From NCBI GenBank assembly GCA_945871415.1, contig CAMBWG010000020.1:1-13370 (forward strand): a stretch of DNA of 13,370 bases, in the 5' to 3' direction. The stretch comes from an uncultured Desulfovibrio sp. (GTDB taxonomy: Bacteria > Desulfobacterota > Desulfovibrionia > Desulfovibrionales > Desulfovibrionaceae). The notes under the pieces were generated by a model. It did no database searches. It saw only the letters and a list, made by a program, of their open reading frames with translations, and was not told the origin of the DNA. Shown piece after piece: positions 1-10,739 of the stretch; the stretch's first letter is position 1; every line of letters begins with the position of its first letter. A program made the position numbers and the translations under genes.

Positions 1-59
1 GCGAAACGACAGGCCGTATGGTTTGAAATGCAAAGCATTTCAAACTGAAAATGCTTTAG
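1..59 (+). repeat. Dispersed repeat, copy A (truncated by window edge)
   Basis: This is the right-hand part of the repeat family also seen at 2876, 4678, 6210 and 10592. It carries the GCGAAACGACAGGCCG core, then a perfect 11-bp hairpin at 21-45 (arms GTTTGAAATGC and GCATTTCAAAC, loop AAA), and ends in AAAATGCTTTAG. The left half lies outside the window, so the gene it adjoins cannot be seen. The arms differ from those of copy E, but both arms change together, so pairing is kept. Confidence 0.9.
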
Positions 60-1849: not shown

Positions 1850-2878
1850 ATGTTTTTCCGAAGAGTCTTGTCCTTTGTGCTGCTTTTTCTCGTCGTGCTG
1901 TCAGTTGCGGGGCCTGTTGCCGCCGCGCCCCTGCGCGTAACCCTGCTGCTGGAAGATCCCGATCCCGCCAATCCTCAGGCTGCGGATCTGCGGCGGGGGC
2001 TGGAGGAGGCCCGGAAGCGCTTCGGCATCGAGGCGCATATTGTTGCCGCTCCTGCCGGGGAGGATCAGACTGCCGTCTTTCGTGCCGCGGCCGCATCTTC
2101 GGATCTGGTGCTGATGGCTGATGCCCGTCTGCATGAGGTGCTGCGCGACAATGCCGCCAATTTCCGTAAAGTGCGCTTCGGCTGCATTGATACCGGCGTT
2201 CGCGCTCCCAATATCATGTCCGTGACATTTGCCGATGAGCAGGCGGCTTTTCTGGCCGGAGCCGCGGCCGCATTGACGGCCCGTTCCGGCGTTCTGCCCG
2301 GTGGGCTTACCGGGGAGGCCGTCGGCTGGCTTTCCGGCGAAAGTACGCCCATGGATGATTCCATGTTTGCCGCCTATGTGGAGGGAGCCCGGCTGATTTC
2401 TCCTGAAATACGCGTTATCCGCCGGGACGCCGGGTCCTTTACCGATGAGGCCGCCGCTGCCGGACAGGCCGACGGACTGATGGATGAAGGTACGGCCGTC
2501 GTCGCCGTCATGGCACGGCGCGCCGATGCGGCCGCCGTGAAACGCATTGCGGCGCGCGGCGGCTATCTTGTGGGAGAAACGTCCCGCCCGCTGCTGCCGG
2601 AGCGCACGGTAACGTCCATTGTGCGTCGTCTGGATCTGGCCGTTTTCGAGATTGTGGCCGCCGCTGCGGAAGGTCGCTTTGCCGGGGGCAAGATTATTAC
2701 CCGCACCCTGGAAGACGGGGGTGTTGTGCTGACTTCGCCGGAAGCCTTTGCGCGGCATTCCGGTCTTGCCGTGCCGCCGCGCGTGTTTTCCCGCCTTGAG
2801 GAATTGCGGCGCGAGCTGGCTTCCGGCAACATCCGGCTGCAAAGCCGTCGTCTGCCTACACTGTGCGATTGCTATTAG
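1850..2878 (+). CDS. BMP-family periplasmic substrate-binding protein
   Basis: This 342-residue protein has an N-terminal signal peptide (residues 1-26, cleavage after VAAA) and no lipobox cysteine, so it should be free in the periplasm. The body follows the BMP/PnrA family pattern: PNIMSVTFADEQAAFLAGAAAAL (residues 120-142, given as PNIMSVTF + ADEQAAFLAG + AAAAL), GSFTDEA (195-201), TVTSIVRRLDLAVFE (253-267) and GRFAGG (275-280). Members bind nucleosides or similar ligands for ABC importers, but no permease or ATPase gene is in the window. The loop that reads GVDSD in typical members reads GETSRP here (242-247), so the ligand may differ. GGGGAA lies 6 nt before the ATG. The stop TAG is the first three bases of repeat copy B, and the last residues (about 331-342) look unlike a family C-terminus. 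Confidence 0.85.
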   Translation: MFFRRVLSFVLLFLVVLSVAGPVAAAPLRVTLLLEDPDPANPQAADLRRGLEEARKRFGIEAHIVAAPAGEDQTAVFRAAAASSDLVLMADARLHEVLRDNAANFRKVRFGCIDTGVRAPNIMSVTFADEQAAFLAGAAAALTARSGVLPGGLTGEAVGWLSGESTPMDDSMFAAYVEGARLISPEIRVIRRDAGSFTDEAAAAGQADGLMDEGTAVVAVMARRADAAAVKRIAARGGYLVGETSRPLLPERTVTSIVRRLDLAVFEIVAAAAEGRFAGGKIITRTLEDGGVVLTSPEAFARHSGLAVPPRVFSRLEELRRELASGNIRLQSRRLPTLCDCY

Positions 2879-3024
2879 AACATTTCAACTTTGAAAAAGG
2901 TGAAACGCGAGGCGGCGGCACAGCGCCGTCCGGCCCGAAGTGAGCGGAAAAACCGCGCTTTTTCCGCGAAACGACAGGCCGTATGGTTTGAACCGCACAG
3001 CGTTTCAAACTGAAAATGCTCTAG
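2876..3024 (+). repeat. Dispersed repeat, copy B (full length, 149 bp)
   Basis: This is the reference copy. The left end is TAGAACATTTCAACTTTGAA; the right end, read in reverse, is CTAGAGCATTTTCAGTTTGA, so the ends are imperfect inverted repeats starting with TAGAGC. Inside are three stem-loops in order: a GC-rich one around 2912-2932, GCGGAAAAA...TTTTTCCGC (2943-2967), and GTTTGAA...TTTCAAAC (about 2986-3010). The first three bases are the stop codon of the BMP gene. The right end lies 17 nt before the exonuclease start. A reading frame through the right half is open into the exonuclease and could be mistaken for its N-terminus. Confidence 0.95.
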
Positions 3025-3041
3025 GTTCGGGAGAACTGCTG

Positions 3042-3575
3042 ATGCCTTTTTCGGCCCTGCCGTCATGTGTGGCCATAGATTTTGAAACGTCCGGATATGA
3101 CGCGGGAAGCGCCTGCGCCGTGGGGCTCGTTCGTCTGGAAAACGGACAGGTGACGGACAGTTTTTCGACGCTGCTGCGTCCGCCGTCTTCGCGGGTTCTG
3201 TTTACGGAAGTGCACGGCCTGACCTGGCCCATGCTGCGTGATGCGCCGACCTTTGCCGAGGTCTGGCCGCGCATGGCTTCCTTTATGGAGGGGGCGCAAT
3301 GGCTGCTGGCGCATAATGCGGGTTTTGATCGCCGGGTGCTGTATGCCTGCTGCAGAAACGCGGGCTTCGATCGTCCGGCCATTCCCTTTCTGTGCACGCT
3401 CAAGGGATCGCGGCGCTCGCTGCCGTTGCCGTCGCGCAAGCTGAACGTCGTCTGCGAGTACTTCGGCATTCCCCTGCGGCATCATGACGCGTCCTCCGAT
3501 GCCGAGGCCTGTGCCCATGTCTATGTGCGTCTGCGGGAGCGGGGCGTCAGCGATGCGGAGATGCGCCTGAAATGA
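3042..3575 (+). CDS. DEDDh-family 3'-5' exonuclease
   Basis: This 177-residue RNase T/DnaQ-type nuclease has all catalytic residues visible: Asp13 and Glu15 in AIDFETSG, Asp96 in AHNAGFD, and His148 with Asp153 in HHDASSD (H-X4-D, the DEDDh form). Proteins of this group trim 3' ends of single-stranded DNA or RNA; the substrate here cannot be read from sequence. It is a lone exonuclease domain, shorter than DNA polymerase III epsilon subunits that carry a polymerase-binding tail. The ATG at 3042 has GGGAGAA about 8 nt upstream. A longer frame starting at 2940 exists, but its first 34 codons lie almost entirely in repeat copy B, so it is rejected. The stop overlaps the next start (ATGA), pointing to translational coupling. 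Confidence 0.85.
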   Translation: MPFSALPSCVAIDFETSGYDAGSACAVGLVRLENGQVTDSFSTLLRPPSSRVLFTEVHGLTWPMLRDAPTFAEVWPRMASFMEGAQWLLAHNAGFDRRVLYACCRNAGFDRPAIPFLCTLKGSRRSLPLPSRKLNVVCEYFGIPLRHHDASSDAEACAHVYVRLRERGVSDAEMRLK

Positions 3576-4123
3576 TGTCCGCCGTGCCCAGTCTTCTGTT
3601 GCGGCGCATTCGTGTCGCTAAAGAACGTTTTTTACCGTTTCTGCGTCCTGCTGATGACAATGAAACCCTGTTGCGGCGTCATCTGCGGAAGGGGGAACTG
3701 TACGGTCTGTTTTGCAACAAACGGGAACCGGTGAGCATGGCCGTGGTGGCGGATGTCAGCGCGTCCTTTGCCGCCGGAGGCCGGGAAGCCGGACTTGCGC
3801 CCGCGCTCGAAGGGCTTCGTGTCTGTGAGTGTACGTTGCTGGCGACGGCGTCTGCCTTTCGCGGACAGGGCTGCGGAGCGCAGCTCCTGATGCGCCTGTG
3901 CGGTCTGTATGACGGCGCGTATGACGCCATGATTGCCGGAACGGGCGAGACGCCCCGCATGCGCCGTTTTTATGAGGGGCGTTGCGGCTTTCATCCCTGC
4001 TTCCGGCGCACCGGCTTTTTTCTGCACGGGTATCCGCAGCCGTTGATTGAAGATGGCGTGCAGCTTCGGGATATGCTTGTTTTCTGTCGCTTTTTGCGTT
4101 CCCGGGGAGGAAAAGGGGGATAA
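3572..4123 (+). CDS. GNAT-family N-acetyltransferase
   Basis: This 183-residue protein has the acetyl-CoA-binding signature RGQGCG (97-102, Q/RxxGxG/A) in FRGQGCGAQLLMRL, followed by RRFYEGRCGF (131-140), the usual C-terminal GNAT strand-helix pattern. GNAT enzymes move an acetyl group from acetyl-CoA to an amine on a small molecule or protein; the acceptor is not predictable. It overlaps the exonuclease by 4 nt (ATGA), so the two are very likely translated together. A second ATG directly follows the first. A strong terminator lies 21 nt after the stop, so this is the last gene of the unit. Confidence 0.8.
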   Translation: MMSAVPSLLLRRIRVAKERFLPFLRPADDNETLLRRHLRKGELYGLFCNKREPVSMAVVADVSASFAAGGREAGLAPALEGLRVCECTLLATASAFRGQGCGAQLLMRLCGLYDGAYDAMIAGTGETPRMRRFYEGRCGFHPCFRRTGFFLHGYPQPLIEDGVQLRDMLVFCRFLRSRGGKGG

Positions 4124-4144
4124 ACGGCAGGCTTTCGAGCAGTC

Positions 4145-4179
4145 AAAAAACCGCCGCACAACTGTGTGGCGGTTTTTTT
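4145..4179 (+). terminator. Rho-independent terminator after the GNAT gene
   Basis: CCGCCGCA (from 4151) pairs with TGTGGCGG (ending 4172), with up to two further pairs in the loop, and is followed by seven T (4173-4179). Six A precede the stem, so it could also work on the minus strand. It insulates the flagellar promoter 30 nt downstream. Confidence 0.95.
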
Positions 4180-4208
4180 ATATTGATATTATTGAATTTT
4201 TTTTAATG

Positions 4209-4224
4209 TGGCACGCATGTTGCT
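4209..4224 (+). promoter_or_regulatory. Sigma-54 promoter of flgB-flgC-fliE
   Basis: TGGCAC (4209-4214), five bases, TTGCT (4220-4224) matches the sigma-54 consensus TGGCAC-N5-TTGCW at every defined position. The invariant GG (-24) is at 4210-4211 and GC (-12) at 4222-4223. Transcription would start near 4235, leaving a leader of about 32 nt before the flgB ATG. Sigma-54 promoters need an AAA+ activator bound upstream, so an enhancer site is expected over or before the GNAT gene end. The flank between terminator and promoter is very A/T-rich. Confidence 0.93.
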
Positions 4225-4266
4225 TTTAACGGTGTACAACGAAAGCAATCACGTGGGAGACGTGTC

Positions 4267-4680
4267 ATGAAGAGTATGTTCAATGCGCAGGTTGATCTGA
4301 TCAGCAAGGTTATGGATATGCAGCTGCAACGGCAGAATGTTATCGCAAGTAACCTTGCCAATATGGAAACTCCCAATTACAAGCCGCGCGAGCTGGAATT
4401 TGAAGACGAGTTGCAGAAGGCTCTCGGCCTCGATATGCGCGGTACTATGGCCACAACCCGTGCGGGGCATATGCCTGCAATGTTTTCCGCAGAGACCTTT
4501 ACTCCCGAATGGTTCAAGCAGTTCAAGCCGCGCCAGATCCACGGCGAAGATCGGGTGAACCTGGATAAGGAAATGGCCAAGCATGCCAAGAATCAGCTCC
4601 AGTACTCGGCTCTGACCCAGATTCAGGCCAAGAACTTTGAAGGTCTGGCCTCGCTGATTCAGGATGCCAAGCAGGCTTAG
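4267..4680 (+). CDS. flgB: Flagellar proximal rod protein FlgB
   Basis: This 137-residue protein is a normal FlgB length. The N-terminal rod/hook signature is ASNLANMETPNYKPREL (27-43), which fits the flagellar bb-rod family motif. The C-terminal helix (KNQLQYSALTQIQAKNF) completes the two-helix coiled coil typical of rod proteins. FlgB is exported by the flagellar type III system and forms part of the rod that crosses the periplasm. GGGAG lies 7 nt before the ATG. It is the first gene after the sigma-54 promoter. Its stop TAG is the first three bases of repeat copy C. Confidence 0.97.
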   Translation: MKSMFNAQVDLISKVMDMQLQRQNVIASNLANMETPNYKPRELEFEDELQKALGLDMRGTMATTRAGHMPAMFSAETFTPEWFKQFKPRQIHGEDRVNLDKEMAKHAKNQLQYSALTQIQAKNFEGLASLIQDAKQA

Positions 4681-4798
4681 AGCGTTTCAACTTTGAAAAA
4701 GGGGTAAACGCGAGGCGGCGGCACAGCGCCGCCCGGCCCGAAGTGAGCGGAAAAACCGCGTTTTTCCGCGAAACGACAGGCCGTTGAAAATGCTCCAG
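4678..4798 (+). repeat. Dispersed repeat, copy C (121 bp, one hairpin missing)
   Basis: This copy lies inside the operon, between flgB and flgC. It matches copy B almost base for base but lacks 28 bp between GGCCGT and TGAAAATG, which is exactly the third stem-loop. The GC-rich stem (GGCGGCG...CGCCGCC) and the GCGGAAAAA stem are intact. The left TAG is the flgB stop; the right end has become CTCCAG. It must be transcribed in the flgB-flgC message, and the flgC ribosome site starts about 17 nt after it. Confidence 0.95.
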
Positions 4799-4826
4799 GA
4801 ATTGCAGGCAGTAAAGGAGGCTTATT

Positions 4827-5264
4827 ATGGACTTCATGACGGCGCTTGATATCAGTGCGTCGGGCCTGTCGGCCGACCGCACGCGCATGAATACCATTTC
4901 CATGAACCTGGCCAACGTCAAGACCACGCGCACCCCGCTGGGCGGTCCCTACCGCCGCCGCACGGTTGTGCAGGTGGCCACGGATGTGGACGATCCTTTT
5001 TCCATCCATATGCGTTCGGCGCTGGATCGCGAGCTCAAGGGCGTTCGCGTCATGTCGGTGAATATTGACAACCGCCCGCTCAAGCGCGTGTACGAGCCGG
5101 GGCATCCCGATGCCAATGCGGACGGGTATGTGTTCTACCCCGACATCAACGTGGTGGAAGAAATGGCGCACATGATGACGACGCAGCGCAACTACGAAGC
5201 CAACGTCACCACCATGGAAGCCATCAAGGGCATGTATACCAAGGCCCTGGAAATCGGTAAGTAA
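4827..5264 (+). CDS. flgC: Flagellar proximal rod protein FlgC
   Basis: This 145-residue protein has the rod motif near the N-terminus (SASGLSADRTRMNTISMNLANV, residues 11-32, written here as ISMNLANVKTTRT) and the C-terminal FlgC pattern (YPDINVVEEMAHMMTTQRNYEANV). It is a proximal rod component exported with FlgB. AAAGGAGG sits 6 nt before the ATG, an almost ideal ribosome site. Repeat copy C separates it from flgB, so the two are co-transcribed but not translationally coupled. Confidence 0.97.
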   Translation: MDFMTALDISASGLSADRTRMNTISMNLANVKTTRTPLGGPYRRRTVVQVATDVDDPFSIHMRSALDRELKGVRVMSVNIDNRPLKRVYEPGHPDANADGYVFYPDINVVEEMAHMMTTQRNYEANVTTMEAIKGMYTKALEIGK

Positions 5265-5323
5265 GACGGATTTTTTCGCTGCGGACGGGACAGTTCCGGC
5301 AGTGTCTGAAAAAACGGCACAGG

Positions 5324-5354
5324 GCGGCCGCGTTCCCGGGCAGGAACGCGCCGC
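5324..5354 (+). promoter_or_regulatory. Hairpin just upstream of the fliE ribosome site
   Basis: CGCGTTCC (5329-5336) and GGAACGCG (5343-5350) pair perfectly around a 6-nt loop, with four more pairs outside a bulge. The stem ends only a few bases before the GAGGAG of fliE, so it may affect fliE translation or mRNA stability. There is no U-tract, so it is not a terminator. Confidence 0.4.
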
Positions 5355-5372
5355 GGGAAGAGGAGAAAGATC

Positions 5373-5807
5373 ATGGGTGTGCAGTCTACGGGTATGAAGG
5401 CGTATGAAAATGCCGTGCAGCATTTTAATGCGGTGGAAAGCTCCCTGCGTCAGGGGATGCCGGTGCAGTACAGCCGCGGCACGGACAGAAGCCTGCTGCG
5501 CGACAGCGTGGATCGGAGCGAGGATTTCGGCTCGCACAGCGATTTTATGGTGCGGCGCGAAACGCGGCATACGGCTTTCGGACAGGACAACAGCTTTTCG
5601 CAGACGCTTTCCGAATCTCTGGCGCGGGTGAATGATTTGCAGCAGGCCAAGGCGCAGGCTGTGGAAGATTTTGCGTCGGGGCGCAATCAGAATGTGCACG
5701 AACTTATGGTGACCATGCAGAAGTCCAGCCTTGCCATGAAGCTGACCACGGCTGTGCGCGGCAAGGTGCTGGAAGCCTACAAGGAACTGGCCAAGCTGCA
5801 ATTCTGA
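5373..5807 (+). CDS. fliE: Flagellar hook-basal body protein FliE
   Basis: This 144-residue protein has its family-defining part at the C-terminus: NVHELMVTMQKSSLAMKLT followed by the TAVRGKVLEAYKELAKLQF end. FliE is the adaptor between the MS-ring (FliF) and the proximal rod and is the first rod-type protein exported. It is about 35-40 residues longer than the enterobacterial protein, the extra length being N-terminal. GAGGAG lies about 8 nt before the ATG. It ends the first flagellar unit. In most genomes fliF follows directly, whereas here more than 1.7 kb intervenes. Confidence 0.93.
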   Translation: MGVQSTGMKAYENAVQHFNAVESSLRQGMPVQYSRGTDRSLLRDSVDRSEDFGSHSDFMVRRETRHTAFGQDNSFSQTLSESLARVNDLQQAKAQAVEDFASGRNQNVHELMVTMQKSSLAMKLTTAVRGKVLEAYKELAKLQF

Positions 5808-6209
5808 TGTTCTTCCGTTTTCTCTGTGCCGGATGGAGGCTCGGAGAAAAAAACACCAGATCTTTCTTTCCCATGCCCAGGGTATGCCCGCAGCCGGAAG
5901 GCCGCTGCGGGCGGAGGGCGACGGAAAGCGGACACGGCGTCGCTGCCTTCATGCGCTGCTCCCTGTTCGCCGGAATACGCCGGAGCTGTCCGCGAGGAAG
6001 CGTCCGACGCTTCGGAAAAGGATGAGAAAGCGGACAGTCCGCCGCCGGTTCCCGCCGATCGGCGGGAAGACGACAGGCGCTGCCGCTCGAAAGGTCCTGA
6101 ACCGGCTGCATTTGCGGCCAAGGCCGGAACATGCGCTTTCAGGCCCTTCCCGGCTGTTTGCGCCGCGTCGGAGCGAGATTATATCATGAGACTGCTGTAA
6201 CGACGCCCG
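5808..6209. other. Gene-poor stretch after fliE
   Basis: I see no convincing gene in these 402 bases. Open frames exist on both strands, but they lack ribosome sites, are rich in Arg/Pro/Ser/Cys and use codons unlike the neighbouring genes. Two notable structures are present: GCCCGCAGC (5886-5894) with GCTGCGGGC (5904-5912), and a perfect 20-bp palindrome TTCCCGCCGATCGGCGGGAA (6049-6068). Neither is followed by a U-tract, so no standard terminator follows fliE here. The stretch could be decayed coding DNA. Confidence 0.5.
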
Positions 6210-6339
6210 GAGCGTTCCCCCGTTAAAAAGGGCAGCACAAGGCAGCCCGGCCCGAAGTGAGCGGAAAAACAGCGTTTTTCCACGAAACGACAGGCCGTGC
6301 GGTTTGAAATACGAAGCGTTTCAAACTGAAATTGCTCTA
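6210..6339 (+). repeat. Dispersed repeat, copy D (degenerate left end)
   Basis: The left end is worn (GAGCGTTCCCCCG) and the GC-rich stem is partly lost, but the core CCCGGCCCGAAGTGAGCGG, the GGAAAAAC...GTTTTTCC hairpin and the right end TTTCAAACTGAAATTGCTCTA are clear. The terminal CTA (6337-6339) is, on the minus strand, the TAG stop of the secreted-protein gene. So here it is the right end, not the left, that supplies the stop. Confidence 0.9.
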
Positions 6340-6864
6340 ATAAATGACGGGAAGATACTCCACGAAAATTTCTCCGTTGCCGTTGTAGAAGTCGGCGGTC
6401 AGCGTAATGACAGTGTACACGCTGCGCCAGCGATAACGGTAATGCTCGTGTCCGTAGATATGGCGTCCGGTCAGACTTTCATTACGATAGGGACCCCACT
6501 GGCGCGACAGGGCATGCGCCATGTCCCGGAAGGCTTTCATGGCGACGGCAAAGGTGCGGGCGCCGCAATAATGGAACAGCAGCCCGTTGAGGCGCTGCGT
6601 TTCGGTTGTGCTGACGTAGCCCAGAACCGGTTTGTCGGCAATGCTCATGGCGCTGGAAAGCGCATAGTGATACATATTCTGATCGGTGACGACAGGTTCA
6701 ATCAGCCGTTTTGCCGTGCCGAGAAAGGGCGGCAGCCCCGTGATGGGCGTACCCCAGCGCAGACCGTCAAAGGCCTCGCCGGTAAGGTGTTGCGTGGCCG
6801 TTGCCGGTGTGGCGGCCATGAGGAGCAGCAGCGCCGCAATAAGGAAGTGCTGTAGTCGTGGCAT
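6337..6864 (-). CDS. Secreted protein of unknown function
   Basis: This 175-residue protein has a clear signal peptide (hydrophobic 7-17, cleavage near ATPATA-TQ at 23). I do not recognise the mature domain. It starts with LTGEAFDGLRWGTPITGLPPF (27-47; key residues F32, L35, W37, G38), a pattern I associate with short periplasmic proteins of unknown role. It has one cysteine (Cys100) and an aromatic- and arginine-rich C-terminal half (YGHEHYRYRWRSVY). GGAGG lies 4 nt before the ATG, close but usable. It sits on the opposite strand between fliE and fliF, breaking the flagellar run. Its stop codon is the end of repeat copy D. Confidence 0.75.
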   Translation of the reverse strand: MPRLQHFLIAALLLLMAATPATATQHLTGEAFDGLRWGTPITGLPPFLGTAKRLIEPVVTDQNMYHYALSSAMSIADKPVLGYVSTTETQRLNGLLFHYCGARTFAVAMKAFRDMAHALSRQWGPYRNESLTGRHIYGHEHYRYRWRSVYTVITLTADFYNGNGEIFVEYLPVIY

Positions 6865-7079
6865 GAGACCTCCGGGGGTATGATCCGTCTTGAAATAGTG
6901 CGAGATTTTTTGTGCTCGCTGGCGAAAACAGGCGTCTTCAGCATGACACGAGAGCGTCCTGGCGTCCAGCGTCCCGGGAATTTTCGTTGCGCTCCCGTGC
7001 GCGGCGTGGCGGGCGGCGTACAGCCGTCGGTGTCCGGCGGCTTTTGCGGCAGGGAGGGGAGTAAGTTCCCGACAGTTTT

Positions 7080-7126
7080 GACGTCCTTGCGGCAGTGGGG
7101 AGATGTCGCGGGGGCGTCATTTTTTT
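7080..7126 (+). terminator. Rho-independent terminator 1 of 3
   Basis: The arms at 7080-7094 and 7104-7118 pair over all 15 positions if G-U pairs are allowed. The loop has 9 nt, and the stem is followed by A and seven T (7120-7126). Confidence 0.75.
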
Positions 7127-7195
7127 GTTCCCGACCGAAAAGGCCGGGGCGGTGCGCGCTGGACGGCGAATCCGGCCGGCGATCTGTCTGACAGC

Positions 7196-7218
7196 GCGCT
7201 CTTCCGGAGGAAGAGCGC
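7196..7218. repeat. Perfect hairpin GCGCTCTTCC / GGAAGAGCGC
   Basis: Two 10-bp perfectly complementary arms surround a 3-nt loop (GGA). No U-tract follows on either strand. It lies between terminators 1 and 2; its function is unknown. Confidence 0.55.
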
Positions 7219-7280
7219 CCCATGCTCTGCCGTCGATGCACGGCCTGCGGCCGTCCGCTGTGCTCCGGCGTCAGATGGAC

Positions 7281-7334
7281 GACGCGGCGCGGCGGATCGC
7301 GTGCGGCGATCCGCTGACGCGCGCGTCATTTTTT
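7281..7334 (+). terminator. Rho-independent terminator 2 of 3
   Basis: GCGGATCGC (7292-7300) and GCGATCCGC (7306-7314) form a perfect 9-bp inner stem. GACGCG (7281-7286) and CGCGTC (7322-7327) extend it across an internal loop. A and six T follow (7329-7334). The end GCGTCATTTTTT matches that of terminator 1. Confidence 0.75.
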
Positions 7335-7392
7335 CTTTGCCCTCCGGCGACGCCGCGGAACGGACAAAAAAGCCGATGAAAAGAGGCTCCGC

Positions 7393-7436
7393 GCCGTTTT
7401 TCCGTGCCCTTTGCGGCATGGGAAAACGGCTTTTTT
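7393..7436 (+). terminator. Rho-independent terminator 3 of 3
   Basis: GCCGTTTTTCCGTGCC (7393-7408) and GGCATGGGAAAACGGC (7415-7430) pair at all 16 positions with two G-U pairs, loop CTTTGC, followed by six T. It ends 5 nt before the sigma-54 promoter of fliF, shielding it from transcription coming from upstream. Confidence 0.92.
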
Positions 7437-7441
7437 CATTC

Positions 7442-7457
7442 TGGCACGGGCGTTGCA
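7442..7457 (+). promoter_or_regulatory. Sigma-54 promoter of fliF and downstream genes
   Basis: TGGCAC (7442-7447), GGGCG, TTGCA (7453-7457) is a full match to TGGCAC-N5-TTGCW. The expected start is near 7468, giving a leader of about 54 nt to the fliF ATG. With the site at 4209 it makes a pair of matching promoters, so both flagellar units probably answer to the same activator. Confidence 0.93.
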
Positions 7458-7521
7458 TAATACAGTGCGAGAACGAGGCGTCAAAGCCTTGTCAGGAACC
7501 GTCAGGATGAGGAGTAACACC

Positions 7522-9171
7522 ATGGCCACACCGCCTTTCATGTCCAGTATCAGTGAACGAATCAAAGAAGCCTGGGGCCGCATGAGCAAGGGGCAGCGGA
7601 TTTCCGTCTGTGCCGGGACCGTTCTCGTGCTTGCCGCATTCATAGGGCTGGCCATCTATTCCAGCCGTCCCGATTTTCAGGTGTTGTATTCCAACCTGAC
7701 GCCGGAAGACGCCAACCGCGTCATCAAGATGCTTCAGGCTGACAAGACGCCGTATCAGCTTGCCGACAACGGCACGACCGTCATGGTGCCGCGCGAGGTC
7801 GTCTATGCCCAGCGTATCCGGGTTGCCGGCGAAGGCGGTCTGGTGGGGCAGGGCATCGGCTTTGAACTTTTCGACAAGGTCAAGGTCGGTCAGACGGACT
7901 TTGTGCAGAAGATCAACTACACCAGAGCGCTGCAGGGCGAACTGGCGCGCACCATCAGCGAATTTCCCAGCGTCGAGAGCGCGCGCGTCCATCTGGTTAT
8001 TCCGCAGCGCAGTCTCTTTGTGGAAGATCGTCAGGCTCCGTCCGCATCGGTGGTGCTGAAGCTGCATTCGCCCACCCGCAAGCCGGACCCCAAGGAAATC
8101 AACGCCATCCTCAACATGACCGTCATGGCTGTGGAAGGTCTTGATCCCAATCATGTGTCCATTACCGACAACGGCGGCAAGGTGCTCTATCAGCCCGTAT
8201 CGGACAGTCTTGCGGGCGCCACCTCCACGCAGATGGAACACCGGCTTGAAGTGCAGCGCAACCTGGAGCGCCGCATTGAGGAAATGCTGCAGCCGCTCTT
8301 TGGTCCCGGTCGCGTCATTGCCAAGGTCAATGCCGACATGGACTTCAGCCAGAAGACCATCCGCCGCGAGCTCTATGATCCCGAAAAGGTGGCCGTGCGC
8401 AGCGAGCAGCGCAGCGAAGAAACGCAGCAGGGCCGCGCCAATCTTGAGGGCGGCGCTCCCGATGCCAACTTCCGCGGCGACGGCATCACCGGTTCCGTGT
8501 CCGACCAGAACGGCAGCCGCGAAACCCGTACCACCAACTACGAAATCAACAAGGAAGAACAGCAGATTGTCGCCAATGTGGGCGATCTGCGCCGCCTGAC
8601 CGTGGCTGTCATCATCGACGGCACCTATCAGAAGGTGGACGGCGCCTGGGCTTTCACGCCCCGCAGCAAGGAAGAACTTGATCGCGTGCGGCAATTGGTG
8701 TCAAATGCTGTTGGTCTGGATACGGCGCGCGGCGACTCCCTCGAAGTGAGCTCCGCTCCCTTCATGGATTCCGAACCGCCGGTTGACCCGAACTTTGGCG
8801 ACATCCTCGCCACCTATGCCGAACGTCTGGGCAAGCCGCTGCTCAATGCCCTGCTGGCCTTCCTCTTCCTGATGCTGGTTGTCCGCCCCGTGGTGCTGGC
8901 CCTCATCCGCCCGAAAGTGGAAGCCGGGGAAATGGTCGACGACCTTGTGGGCCTGCCCGCCGCCGAAGAGCAGCTTGCCCTCTATGAAGCGCTGGAAGAC
9001 GCGGCCAAGGGCGATGCGGAAGCGGCTGACGAGGATGAGGACGAAATGTCCTACAAGGATATTGAAGCTCTCAAGGCGCATATCTTCGCCCTGTCCGATA
9101 ATCACATGGAACAGGTGGTGACCCTTATGCGCGGCTGGATGGGAAAGAATGAAAGTAGTGCAAAAGCCTAG
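7522..9171 (+). CDS. fliF: Flagellar MS-ring protein FliF
   Basis: This 549-residue protein has a membrane segment at about 27-47 (SVCAGTVLVLAAFIGLAIYS) and the YscJ/FliF ring-building domains with FELFDKVKVGQTDFVQKINY and PSVESARVHLVIPQRSLF. A polar linker (about 290-350) comes next, then a second membrane segment at about 440-462 and an acidic cytoplasmic tail. The last helix (about 516-540, with F521, D525, H527 and W539) is the FliG-docking segment. FliF forms the ring in the inner membrane on which the rod, switch and export gate are built. GAGGAG lies 7 nt before the ATG at 7522. A longer frame from 7411 is rejected because it would begin upstream of the sigma-54 promoter. Confidence 0.97.
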   Translation: MATPPFMSSISERIKEAWGRMSKGQRISVCAGTVLVLAAFIGLAIYSSRPDFQVLYSNLTPEDANRVIKMLQADKTPYQLADNGTTVMVPREVVYAQRIRVAGEGGLVGQGIGFELFDKVKVGQTDFVQKINYTRALQGELARTISEFPSVESARVHLVIPQRSLFVEDRQAPSASVVLKLHSPTRKPDPKEINAILNMTVMAVEGLDPNHVSITDNGGKVLYQPVSDSLAGATSTQMEHRLEVQRNLERRIEEMLQPLFGPGRVIAKVNADMDFSQKTIRRELYDPEKVAVRSEQRSEETQQGRANLEGGAPDANFRGDGITGSVSDQNGSRETRTTNYEINKEEQQIVANVGDLRRLTVAVIIDGTYQKVDGAWAFTPRSKEELDRVRQLVSNAVGLDTARGDSLEVSSAPFMDSEPPVDPNFGDILATYAERLGKPLLNALLAFLFLMLVVRPVVLALIRPKVEAGEMVDDLVGLPAAEEQLALYEALEDAAKGDAEAADEDEDEMSYKDIEALKAHIFALSDNHMEQVVTLMRGWMGKNESSAKA

Positions 9172-9364
9172 CGGACGCCCTCAGCCCGTTGACGACGGGG
9201 GCAAGGACCTCCCCTCCCTCGCGGACATCAAGGCCCTGCGCCACGCCCAGAAGGAAACCAATCAGCGCGTGGAAGAATTGAAACTGAGGCTCTTCCGTAT
9301 GACGGATCAGCATATGGATCAGGCCGTCAATATCATTAAGCGGTGGCTTGACAAAAAGCAGTAA
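9149..9364 (+). CDS. Small protein resembling the FliG-binding tail of FliF
   Basis: This 71-residue protein overlaps the end of fliF by 23 nt in another frame. GGGAAAG lies just before its ATG, so translational coupling is likely. Residues 1-22 are polar and proline/glycine-rich; 25-70 should be helical, possibly coiled coil. Residues 43-69 (ELKLRLFRMTDQ + HMDQAVNIIKRWLDK) align without gaps to the last helix of FliF (ALKAHIFALSDN + HMEQVVTLMRGWMGK): 10 of 27 identical and most others conservative, including the Phe, Asp, His, Met and Trp positions. I infer that it binds the N-terminal domain of FliG. It has no signal peptide or membrane segment. I know of no named family for it. Confidence 0.75.
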   Translation: MKVVQKPSGRPQPVDDGGKDLPSLADIKALRHAQKETNQRVEELKLRLFRMTDQHMDQAVNIIKRWLDKKQ

Positions 9365-9383
9365 TCACGCCAAGTAATGAGAA

Positions 9384-9417
9384 AGTGATGCGCGGCTCGC
9401 AAGAGTCGCGCATCACT
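9384..9417 (+). terminator. Strong GCAA-capped hairpin after the FliF-tail-like gene
   Basis: AGTGATGCGCGGCTC (9384-9398) and GAGTCGCGCATCACT (9403-9417) pair at all 15 positions with one G-U pair around a GCAA tetraloop. No U-tract follows directly; the nearest T-run is at about 9438-9443. It may be a weak terminator, an attenuator or a processing/stability element that lowers or separates fliG expression from fliF. Confidence 0.5.
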
Positions 9418-9476
9418 CGTCGAGGCTCTCCGGCATATTTTTTCCCGGAGCGCCGATTTTTCATATTTGGGGCAGT

Positions 9477-9510
9477 GAGTTAAAAAAACTCGTAAAAATG
9501 TCTACATTTT
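9477..9510. promoter_or_regulatory. A/T-rich segment with two inverted repeats before fliG
   Basis: In a GC-rich setting this segment is markedly A/T-rich. It holds GAGTT-AAAAA-AACTC (9477-9491) and AAAATGT-CT-ACATTTT (9495-9510), the second a clean operator-like palindrome. It could be a protein-binding site or part of an extra fliG promoter, but I find no good -35/-10 pair and no sigma-54 or sigma-28 site. Confidence 0.35.
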
Positions 9511-9595
9511 ATATCAAGAAAAGCGGGTGCCGGCGCGCGTTGCGGGGAGAGGCGACAATCGTCGTGCAGCCGAAGGCCGCCGTGGAGGATCGGGG

Positions 9596-10594
9596 ATGGA
9601 ATTGACGGGACAGCAGCGCATTGCCGTACTTTTGCTTTCCATGGGTGACAAGTTCACTTCGGACGTGTTCAAACGCATGGATCGGCAGGAAATAGCCGAT
9701 GTATCCCGTGCGATTGTGGAGTTGCCGCCCGTGCCCAAGGATGTGGTTGAGCAGGTGCTGCGCGACTTCCACGAATCGCTGGTGGAAGGCGTGGACATGA
9801 TTTCCGGCGGCAGCGACACGCTGAAGCGGCTGCTTGTCAAAAATACGGACCCGGAAACGGCCAAGTACATCATGGACACCCTCAACCTTGATACCGGCCC
9901 GGCCCCCTTCCGCGAGCTCGGTCAGGTGAGCCCGCGCATGCTGTCGCAGATTCTGCGCAACGAACACCCGCAGACTCTGGCCCTGATTATGGGGCATCTC
10001 AATTCCGATCAGGCGGCAAGCCTGCTGACCAGCCTGCCCGCCGGCGTTCGCGCCGAAGTGCTGATGCGTCTGGCGCGTCTCGAATCCGTGCCGGAAGACA
10101 TGCTTATGGAAGTGGACAAGGTGCTGACGAGTCAGCTCATTGCCATGGGCGGCAAGGAAGGCAAGAAGGTCGGCGGCGTGCAGTCCGTGGCCGAAATCCT
10201 CAATGCCGTGGACCGCGCCACGGAAGAGGAAGTGCTGTCGGAAATCGAAGAAGATTCCGCCCAGATGGCCGAAGATATCCGCAACCTCATGTTTGTGTTC
10301 GAGGACTGCAAGAATATCGACGACAAGGGCATCCGCGAAGTCATCCGGGAAACGCAGCAGGAAGATCTCATTCTTGCTCTGCGCGGCGCCAGCGACGAGC
10401 TCAAGGAAAAGTTCTTCCGCAACATGTCCGAGCGTGCCGCCAACATGATTCGGGAAGAACTGGAATACATGGGCCCCACCAAGCTTTCGGACGTGGAAGG
10501 CGCGCAGCAGAATATTGTCAAGGTCGTGCGGCGGCTCGAGGCCGAGAACAAGGTTGTGGTCAACCGCGGCGGCAACAGCGACATCTTTGTTTAG
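9596..10594 (+). CDS. fliG: Flagellar motor switch protein FliG
   Basis: This 332-residue protein is a standard FliG length. The N-terminal domain (about 1-100) is the part that binds the FliF tail. The middle domain contains the signature EHPQTLALIMGHLN (about 124-137). The C-terminal torque helix contains the conserved charged run around FEDCKNIDDKGIREVIRE (about 238-255), which faces the stator. FliG sits on the cytoplasmic face of the MS-ring and converts ion flow into rotation. GGAGG lies 7 nt before the ATG at 9596; the longer frame from 9527 has no ribosome site. The stop TAG is the first three bases of repeat copy E. Confidence 0.97.
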   Translation: MELTGQQRIAVLLLSMGDKFTSDVFKRMDRQEIADVSRAIVELPPVPKDVVEQVLRDFHESLVEGVDMISGGSDTLKRLLVKNTDPETAKYIMDTLNLDTGPAPFRELGQVSPRMLSQILRNEHPQTLALIMGHLNSDQAASLLTSLPAGVRAEVLMRLARLESVPEDMLMEVDKVLTSQLIAMGGKEGKKVGGVQSVAEILNAVDRATEEEVLSEIEEDSAQMAEDIRNLMFVFEDCKNIDDKGIREVIRETQQEDLILALRGASDELKEKFFRNMSERAANMIREELEYMGPTKLSDVEGAQQNIVKVVRRLEAENKVVVNRGGNSDIFV

Positions 10595-10739
10595 AGCAAT
10601 TTCAGTTTGAAACGCCCGGCGTTTCAAACCATGCGGCCTGTTGTTTCGCGGAAAAAACGCGGTTTTTCCGTTCACTTCGGGCCGGGCGGCGCTGTGCGCC
10701 GCCTCGCGTTTTACCTTTTTCAAAGGCAAAACGCTCTAG
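10592..10739 (-). repeat. Dispersed repeat, copy E (full length, inverted)
   Basis: This is the reverse complement of copy B. On the plus strand it starts TAGAGCAATTTCAGTTTGAA and ends AACGCTCTAG. The GTTTGAAACGCC / GGCGTTTCAAAC stem (10608-10632) is a perfect 12-bp pair around one base. CGGAAAAA...TTTTTCCG and GGCGGCGC-TGT-GCGCCGCC follow. Its first three bases are the fliG stop codon. It lies between fliG and fliH and must be transcribed with them. Confidence 0.95.

Follow-up and report, generated by a model that had tools for sequence, protein, structure and literature searches.

An IS630-type miniature element of Desulfovibrio with a pyrimidine-TA-purine target and frequent insertion at stop codons

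Results

Copies of a short repeat at gene ends

The contig analysed here (the window: all 13,370 nucleotides of CAMBWG010000020.1, contig C20 of assembly GCA_945871415.1 of an uncultured Desulfovibrio sp.; 2.56 Mb in 435 contigs, 79% complete) carries copies A to E of an element of about 148 bp, which is present in hundreds of copies per genome. Copy B adjoins a gene for a Bmp/PnrA-like protein (Pfam), copy C adjoins flgB, whose product carries a rod-protein domain (Pfam), copy D a minus-strand gene for a secreted-looking protein that has no Pfam match, and copy E a gene that we take to be fliG, a name adopted from a preliminary description of this DNA. That description had reported that copies B to E each end on the in-frame TAG stop codon of the adjoining gene, with either end of the element and either strand being used, and reading the four junctions in the sequence confirms this (Table 1). 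Its account of the outer boundaries was less exact, and the end of copy E and the far ends of copies C and D are corrected in the table.

Table 1. Copies of the element in the window and the stop codons at their ends.
Feature	Position	Strand	Details
Copy A	1..58	-	truncated by contig edge; visible end GCTTTA(G), not the stop of a called gene
Copy B	2876..3023	-	complete; TA...TA; G after far end (original stop taken as TAG)
TAG stop of Bmp-family gene (1850-2878)	2876..2878	+	from element end; ...TGC TAT TAG AAC
Copy C	4678..4797	-	120 bp; both ends present; one internal hairpin missing; far end CTCCA (not CTCTA), followed by G
TAG stop of flgB (4267-4680)	4678..4680	+	...GCT TAG AGC
Copy D	6208..6339	-	end at 6339 intact; opposite end decayed to CGGAGC
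TAG stop of minus-strand gene (6337-6864)	6337..6339	-	...GTC ATT TAT TAG AGC; element on the same stop in relative G190
Copy E	10592..10738	+	complete; both ends TA; G after far end; end corrected to 10738
TAG stop of fliG (9596-10594)	10592..10594	+	...GTT TAG AGC

Genome-wide census

The core motif of the element (up to three mismatches) matches its own genome 332 times, and a reversed control gives no match. Detailed counts were made on contigs C1-C80 (950,302 bp, 80 of the 435 contigs, 37% of the assembly) with a copy profile of 146 columns, built from 127 near-complete nhmmer matches of copy E. Genes were predicted with a self-trained caller (818 genes, 783 with a stop codon); in the window this caller overlooks a 71-codon open reading frame (9149-9364) and predicts a doubtful one (6178-6283). 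The profile search yielded 256 matches, or 250 non-overlapping copies or fragments, amounting to 3.1% of this DNA.

Exactly at a called stop codon lie 62 of the 359 usable element ends. The others lie downstream of a stop (119) or upstream of a start (115), overlap gene calls (56: 33, 17 and 6) or have no upstream gene (7). Among complete copies, 39 of 124 have a stop at one end and the majority, 85, are elsewhere, so the four out of four that were reported for the window were a favourable draw; 27 of the 124 overlap a gene call, not resolved singly. The preliminary description had proposed a genome-wide excess at stop codons as a check, and such an excess is found: 39 TA sites at stops are filled and 470 empty, compared with 58 and 3,035 non-coding TA sites (odds ratio 4.3, p=1e-10), a naive count that leaves out the 27 complete copies overlapping a gene call.

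The 783 stop codons comprise 330 TAG, 235 TGA and 218 TAA. TAG is likewise the commonest stop in the close relative G190 (266 of 640), and in the own genome it remains so without the 56 TAGs made by the element.

Target site and original codons

The boundaries of the element read Y-TA/GAGC (Y, pyrimidine; R, purine). Around the 85 complete non-stop copies, a pyrimidine precedes the TA in 70 cases and a purine follows in 67. There is thus a preference for pyrimidine-TA-purine (YTAR) targets, absent from the preliminary description, that is seen at non-stop sites too. Counting complete copies, as we do for occupancy unless stated otherwise, 36 of 326 non-coding YTAR sites in the own genome are filled, compared with 20 of 1,733 half-sites and 2 of 1,034 RTAY sites; intergenic half-sites are used about 10 times less, and RTAY sites about 50 times less, than YTAR. 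Within YTAR, stop codons (26/219, 11.9%) and non-coding sites (36/326, 11.0%) are filled alike (p=0.78).

Empty TA sites in C1-C80 number 15,560 in coding DNA (384 of them YTAR), 3,035 in non-coding DNA (290 YTAR) and 470 at stops (193 YTAR). YTAR is strongly under-represented among the coding sites.

The base beyond the far dinucleotide tells what the codon had been, a purine meaning that the site was TAG or TAA and a pyrimidine that it was a tyrosine codon. In the 39 stop copies this base is G in 25, A in 11, T in two and C in one, so that 36 fit a rebuilt stop and three a truncation. When the far base is taken as the original third base, TAA has changed to TAG in 11 of the 36 purine-type cases. 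The preliminary description had argued that such insertions are harmless because TAG is restored. Both ends do begin with GAGC, so that either side of an inserted element would read TAGAGC. Harmlessness alone cannot account for the excess: half-sites and RTAY sites in intergenic DNA are, as far as one can tell, harmless too, yet they are far less used than YTAR.

Empty sites in relatives

Three close relatives, G190, G167 and G183 (FliG 98-99% identical), have an element-free end of fliG that reads GTC TAG CGG or GTC TAG CAG (CTAG), where the own genome reads GTT TA-element-TAG CGG. This comparison of filled and empty sites shows the TA duplication that was to be expected from the preliminary description. 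At flgB, the stop carries the element in G190 and G167 and is GCC TAG without it in G183; the G190 stretch compared contains no match to the 3' end of the Bmp gene.

A BLAST search with joined flanks gave 26 spanning alignments, 16 for the 127 complete copies queried in one direction and 10 for the 133 in the other. Seven concern stop codons, and in five of these the relative has TAR at the junction (G190 junctions for C52 2611, C33 943, C4 9920, C3 8299 and C13 4963; frame not checked singly). Together with fliG and flgB, TAR is present at seven of nine empty stop sites. About 14 of the 19 non-stop cases were assessable, and TA was found in six (read by eye, many junctions having insertions or deletions). 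The preliminary description's requirement of a TA at the empty junction thus has a mixed outcome, holding at most of the stop sites and at these six of the non-stop sites.

A probable partner element of the IS630 family

An IS630-family insertion sequence (IS) of about 1 kb is present in G190 and G167. The two copies are 90.5% identical and their flanks are unrelated. Its ends, TAGAGCGTTTCA[AC]CTTTGAAATG and TAGAGCAATTCAACTTTGA, resemble those of the short element, TAGAGCATTTT and TAGAGCGTTTT, which form inverted terminal repeats; over 21 positions, an IS end agrees with an end of the short element at 20 in G190 and at 19 in G167. In G190 the frame is open (326 codons), its product scores 193 bits with the NCBIfam IS630-family model (cut-off 100) and contains the Pfam domains DDE_3 and HTH, and the IS directly adjoins a copy of the short element. 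DDE_3 matches cover almost the whole domain in both G190 and G167. The short element itself is multicopy and too short for a transposase, its insertion duplicates TA, and a partner with the same ends is present in the lineage. It is a new IS630-type family of miniature inverted-repeat transposable elements (MITEs) with YTAR target choice, in agreement with the IS630/Tc1-mariner assignment made earlier, and judging by the shared ends it is probably moved by this transposase.

A DDE_3 match in the own genome (contig C172) was considered as the mobiliser and rejected, as it is partial, lies at a contig end and has no matching ends around the frame. It belongs to a further type of IS630-like transposase frame, about 260-281 codons long, that occurs in three close species (own genome C172, G190:C140 and G167:C84); the frame before it in C172 presumably encodes a sigma-54-type regulator, which it resembles.

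Predicted fold and orientation

The consensus is predicted to fold into several hairpins closed by the element ends (-69 kcal/mol, z -6.5), and predicted folds of copies E, B and C have z values of -7.1, -3.2 and -4.1. No match was found in the window in Rfam at the gathering threshold. Double changes are more frequent in 244 copies from two genomes than in shuffles (204 vs 90), copies sharing subfamilies and some insertions; for that reason covariation was set aside as proof of a functional RNA. Copies B, C and E share one terminator-like hairpin, and the region holds 17 terminator-like sites where 10.0 are expected (standard deviation 3.4). Another terminator-like structure, a perfect 24-bp inverted repeat, lies at 114-171 of the window, just downstream of a minus-strand radical SAM gene.

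Of the two ends in the profile, the one termed R faces the stop codon in 41 cases and end L in 21 (p=0.015). The R:L ratio of complete stop copies is 22:15 in the own genome and 19:16 in G190, and that of partial copies is 16:5 and 10:1, respectively. Tandem spans show the same lean of end R toward the upstream gene (non-coding copies, 32:23 in the own genome and 40:16 in G190), which is thus no peculiarity of stops.

Spread of the element and of similar elements

The core within two mismatches was found in 7 of 149 family genomes, the own genome included, and in none of the eight same-genus genomes of this draw. Relatives selected by FliG similarity (G167, G190, G183 and G185) are rich in copies and gave 43-48 scored matches each, where only 40 first-look candidates were scored of the 356-785 in each genome. 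In a collection of named genomes, an exact pattern occurs in Desulfovibrio, Mailhella and other Desulfovibrionaceae among the 80 loci listed, out of at least 109 stretches. A megablast search of a plasmid collection with the fliF-fliG region gave no match.

Different short TAGAGC elements lie on the stop of fliG in G087 and G197, out of 30 fliG loci read, and on that of flgB in G163, out of 18 flgB loci read. Since their sequences differ, these occurrences at shared stops are likely independent hits. A very short hairpin element (<30 bp), TAGAGCAATTTC[AT]CTTTGAAATTGCTCTGG, sits exactly on the fliG stop of G087 and the flgB stop of G163, in the same genus.

The stop excess in a second genome

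A sample of 800 kb of G190 contains 208 copies, with an exact stop at 44 of 337 ends and, over all TA sites, a stop odds ratio of 5.0. Adjusted for three bases on each side, with intergenic spans limited to 600 bp unless stated otherwise, the stop odds ratio is 1.28 (0.76-2.17) in the own genome and 2.06 (1.25-3.40) in G190. Limiting spans to 300 bp gives a pooled value of 1.59 (1.06-2.40), and by span type the adjusted ratio is 1.18 (0.74-1.89) for tandem and 2.03 (1.07-3.88) for convergent spans. From non-coding context rates, 27.5 stop insertions are expected in the own genome, where 39 are observed. A full disappearance of the excess within YTAR, which holds for intergenic sites of the own genome, fails in G190.

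Over both genomes, 56 of 388 YTAR sites at the stop itself are occupied. Occupancy at YTAR sites is 4/63 at 0-20 nt from stops, 9/94 at 20-60 nt, 8/150 at 60-150 nt and 12/164 at 150-400 nt, with no gradient toward stops within these 400 nt in the two genomes. Near TGA stops alone, 2 of 13 YTAR sites are filled within 20 nt and 1 of 30 at 20-60 nt, numbers that are too small to be informative.

Discussion

Proposed explanation

The stop-codon pattern is real and is largely explained by target choice plus TAG restoration. With a probability of roughly 0.8, we regard the element as an IS630-type MITE with YTAR targeting, whose position on stops follows from its choice of target and from harmless restoration of TAG. 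It would be a non-autonomous MITE moved by the IS630-family transposase whose own element shares the TAGAGC ends. It inserts at TA, strongly favouring YTAR, and duplicates the TA. YTAR is scarce inside genes, but each TAA or TAG stop whose preceding codon has C or T as its last base is such a site. There, insertion rebuilds an in-frame TAG and leaves the protein unchanged, and insertions in coding DNA would mostly be lost. Better survival of copies at stops may account for the leftover excess: an end that serves as a stop codon would be held by selection and stay countable, while some intergenic sites fall in promoters, ribosome sites or terminators.

Several observations weigh against this explanation. 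At half-sites of the own genome stops are more often filled than non-coding sites (13/290 vs 20/1,733, p=3e-4), three of the 13 being pyrimidine-type truncations. In G190 the excess persists within YTAR (stops 30/170, 17.6%, vs non-coding 48/634, 7.6%; p=2e-4), and the pooled adjusted ratio of the two genomes is 1.63 (1.14-2.33), or 1.95 (1.38-2.76) without the span limit. Compared with the next 60 and 150 nt, the adjusted ratio at the stop is 2.32 (0.99-5.45) and 3.41 (1.59-7.31) in the own genome, 3.41 and 3.45 in G190, and 2.83 and 3.33 pooled. Only 34 of 118 complete copies have TA at both ends, another 34 being one transition away and 50 carrying more changes, so that either considerable decay or the use of some other dinucleotides has to be allowed for. 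Two of the nine empty stop sites lack TAR: the site of the G190 copy at C8 8266 is TGA, and that of C31 5752 has no TA. Finally, the IS frame is interrupted in G167, and a DDE_3 search of the own, 79%-complete assembly found no open IS630 gene of the type with MITE ends.

Alternative explanations

One alternative is that, beyond its YTAR preference, the element is recruited to gene ends, for example to places where transcription or translation is terminating, and serves as a portable 3' end that combines a stop codon with stem-loops. The adjusted excess of 1.6- to 2-fold over intergenic sites and of about 3-fold over the next 60-150 nt points that way, as do the very stable predicted fold of the consensus and of copy E and the prevalence of end R at stops. 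The absence of any rise in YTAR occupancy within 20-60 nt of stops speaks against recruitment, and so do the 85 of 124 complete copies that are not at stops and the R lean of tandem non-coding copies. Moreover, stop-linked copies are not better conserved than others (median score 135, n=39, vs 143, n=85; p=0.11), and the shared terminator-like hairpin is in sense orientation only to fliG, being antisense to BMP and flgB. Active direction to gene ends, which the preliminary description had offered as its alternative, thus keeps the residual excess in its favour and finds no gradient near stops; it is not needed to explain the pattern, and we consider recruitment unlikely. The same low likelihood applies to the stronger version in which the IS630 machinery is favoured at or recruited to stop codons, making the MITE a mobile gene-end cassette that turns TAA into TAG and brings a strong RNA fold; the stops of fliG and flgB bear elements of this sort in more than one species.

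Loss of copies elsewhere could by itself enrich stops if insertion occurred at any TA. The 384 empty coding YTAR sites agree with such survivorship, as do the copies overlapping gene calls, yet non-coding RTAY sites are hardly ever filled, which contradicts loss as the sole cause and makes this explanation very improbable. Least probable of all is that the stop coincidences are C-terminal truncations caused by insertion into tyrosine codons. The three stop copies with a pyrimidine beyond the far end fit this, and the IS copy of G167 ends a 344-codon frame with T beyond its far end; for most cases it is contradicted by the purine in 36 of 39 copies and by relatives whose fliG and flgB end at the same codon. 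Taken as a whole, the interpretation in the preliminary description is partly supported.

An IS630-type MITE with YTAR targeting would offer a simple, quantitative way for a transposon to populate a compact genome while doing little harm, its motif being rare in genes and common at stops. It predicts that YTAR-preferring TA elements with stop-completing ends accumulate on stop codons and convert some TAA to TAG, and that the same stops are targeted in related species. With filled and empty stops available in close relatives, it can be tested whether a stem-loop located exactly at the stop alters expression.

Comparison with known systems

Among the titles and abstract openings of open-licence papers, we found no description of this MITE family in Desulfovibrio and no IS630 MITE analysed for stop-codon regeneration. 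The Correia elements of Neisseria are similar small TA-flanked MITEs with stem-loops, as far as the available text describes them (PMC2229807); as this likeness is one of description and not of sequence, we do not file the Desulfovibrio MITE as a Correia member. ISY100, according to the available part of its report (PMC6400869), resembles the IS630 partner in its transposase class (Tc1/mariner/IS630), TA target and size (947 bp), and differs in having a slight A/T preference around the TA in place of the strong YTAR preference seen here. MITEPsy1 of Pseudomonas syringae inserts at CTAG or YTAA (PMC3189936) and is thus a MITE at YTAR-like sites; in the available text it is listed as 'IS5?', with a 4-nt duplication, few copies and no described link to stop codons. 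The BOX repeat of Streptococcus pneumoniae likewise supplies stop codons, encoding one in 36 of 58 overlapping coding sequences (PMC3049150). It is a different element, whose terminal inverted repeats are likened to ISSpn2, and stop regeneration at a target TA is not described in the portion of that paper available to us. RUP of S. pneumoniae, a 107-bp MITE with 108 copies, is similar in its TA target and in having ends like those of an IS630-family element, its partner IS630-Spn1 (PMC2229807, PMC3049150). What sets the Desulfovibrio MITE apart from RUP, as RUP is reported in the available parts of these papers, is its hundreds of copies, its TAGAGC ends, its YTAR target and its frequent position on stop codons.

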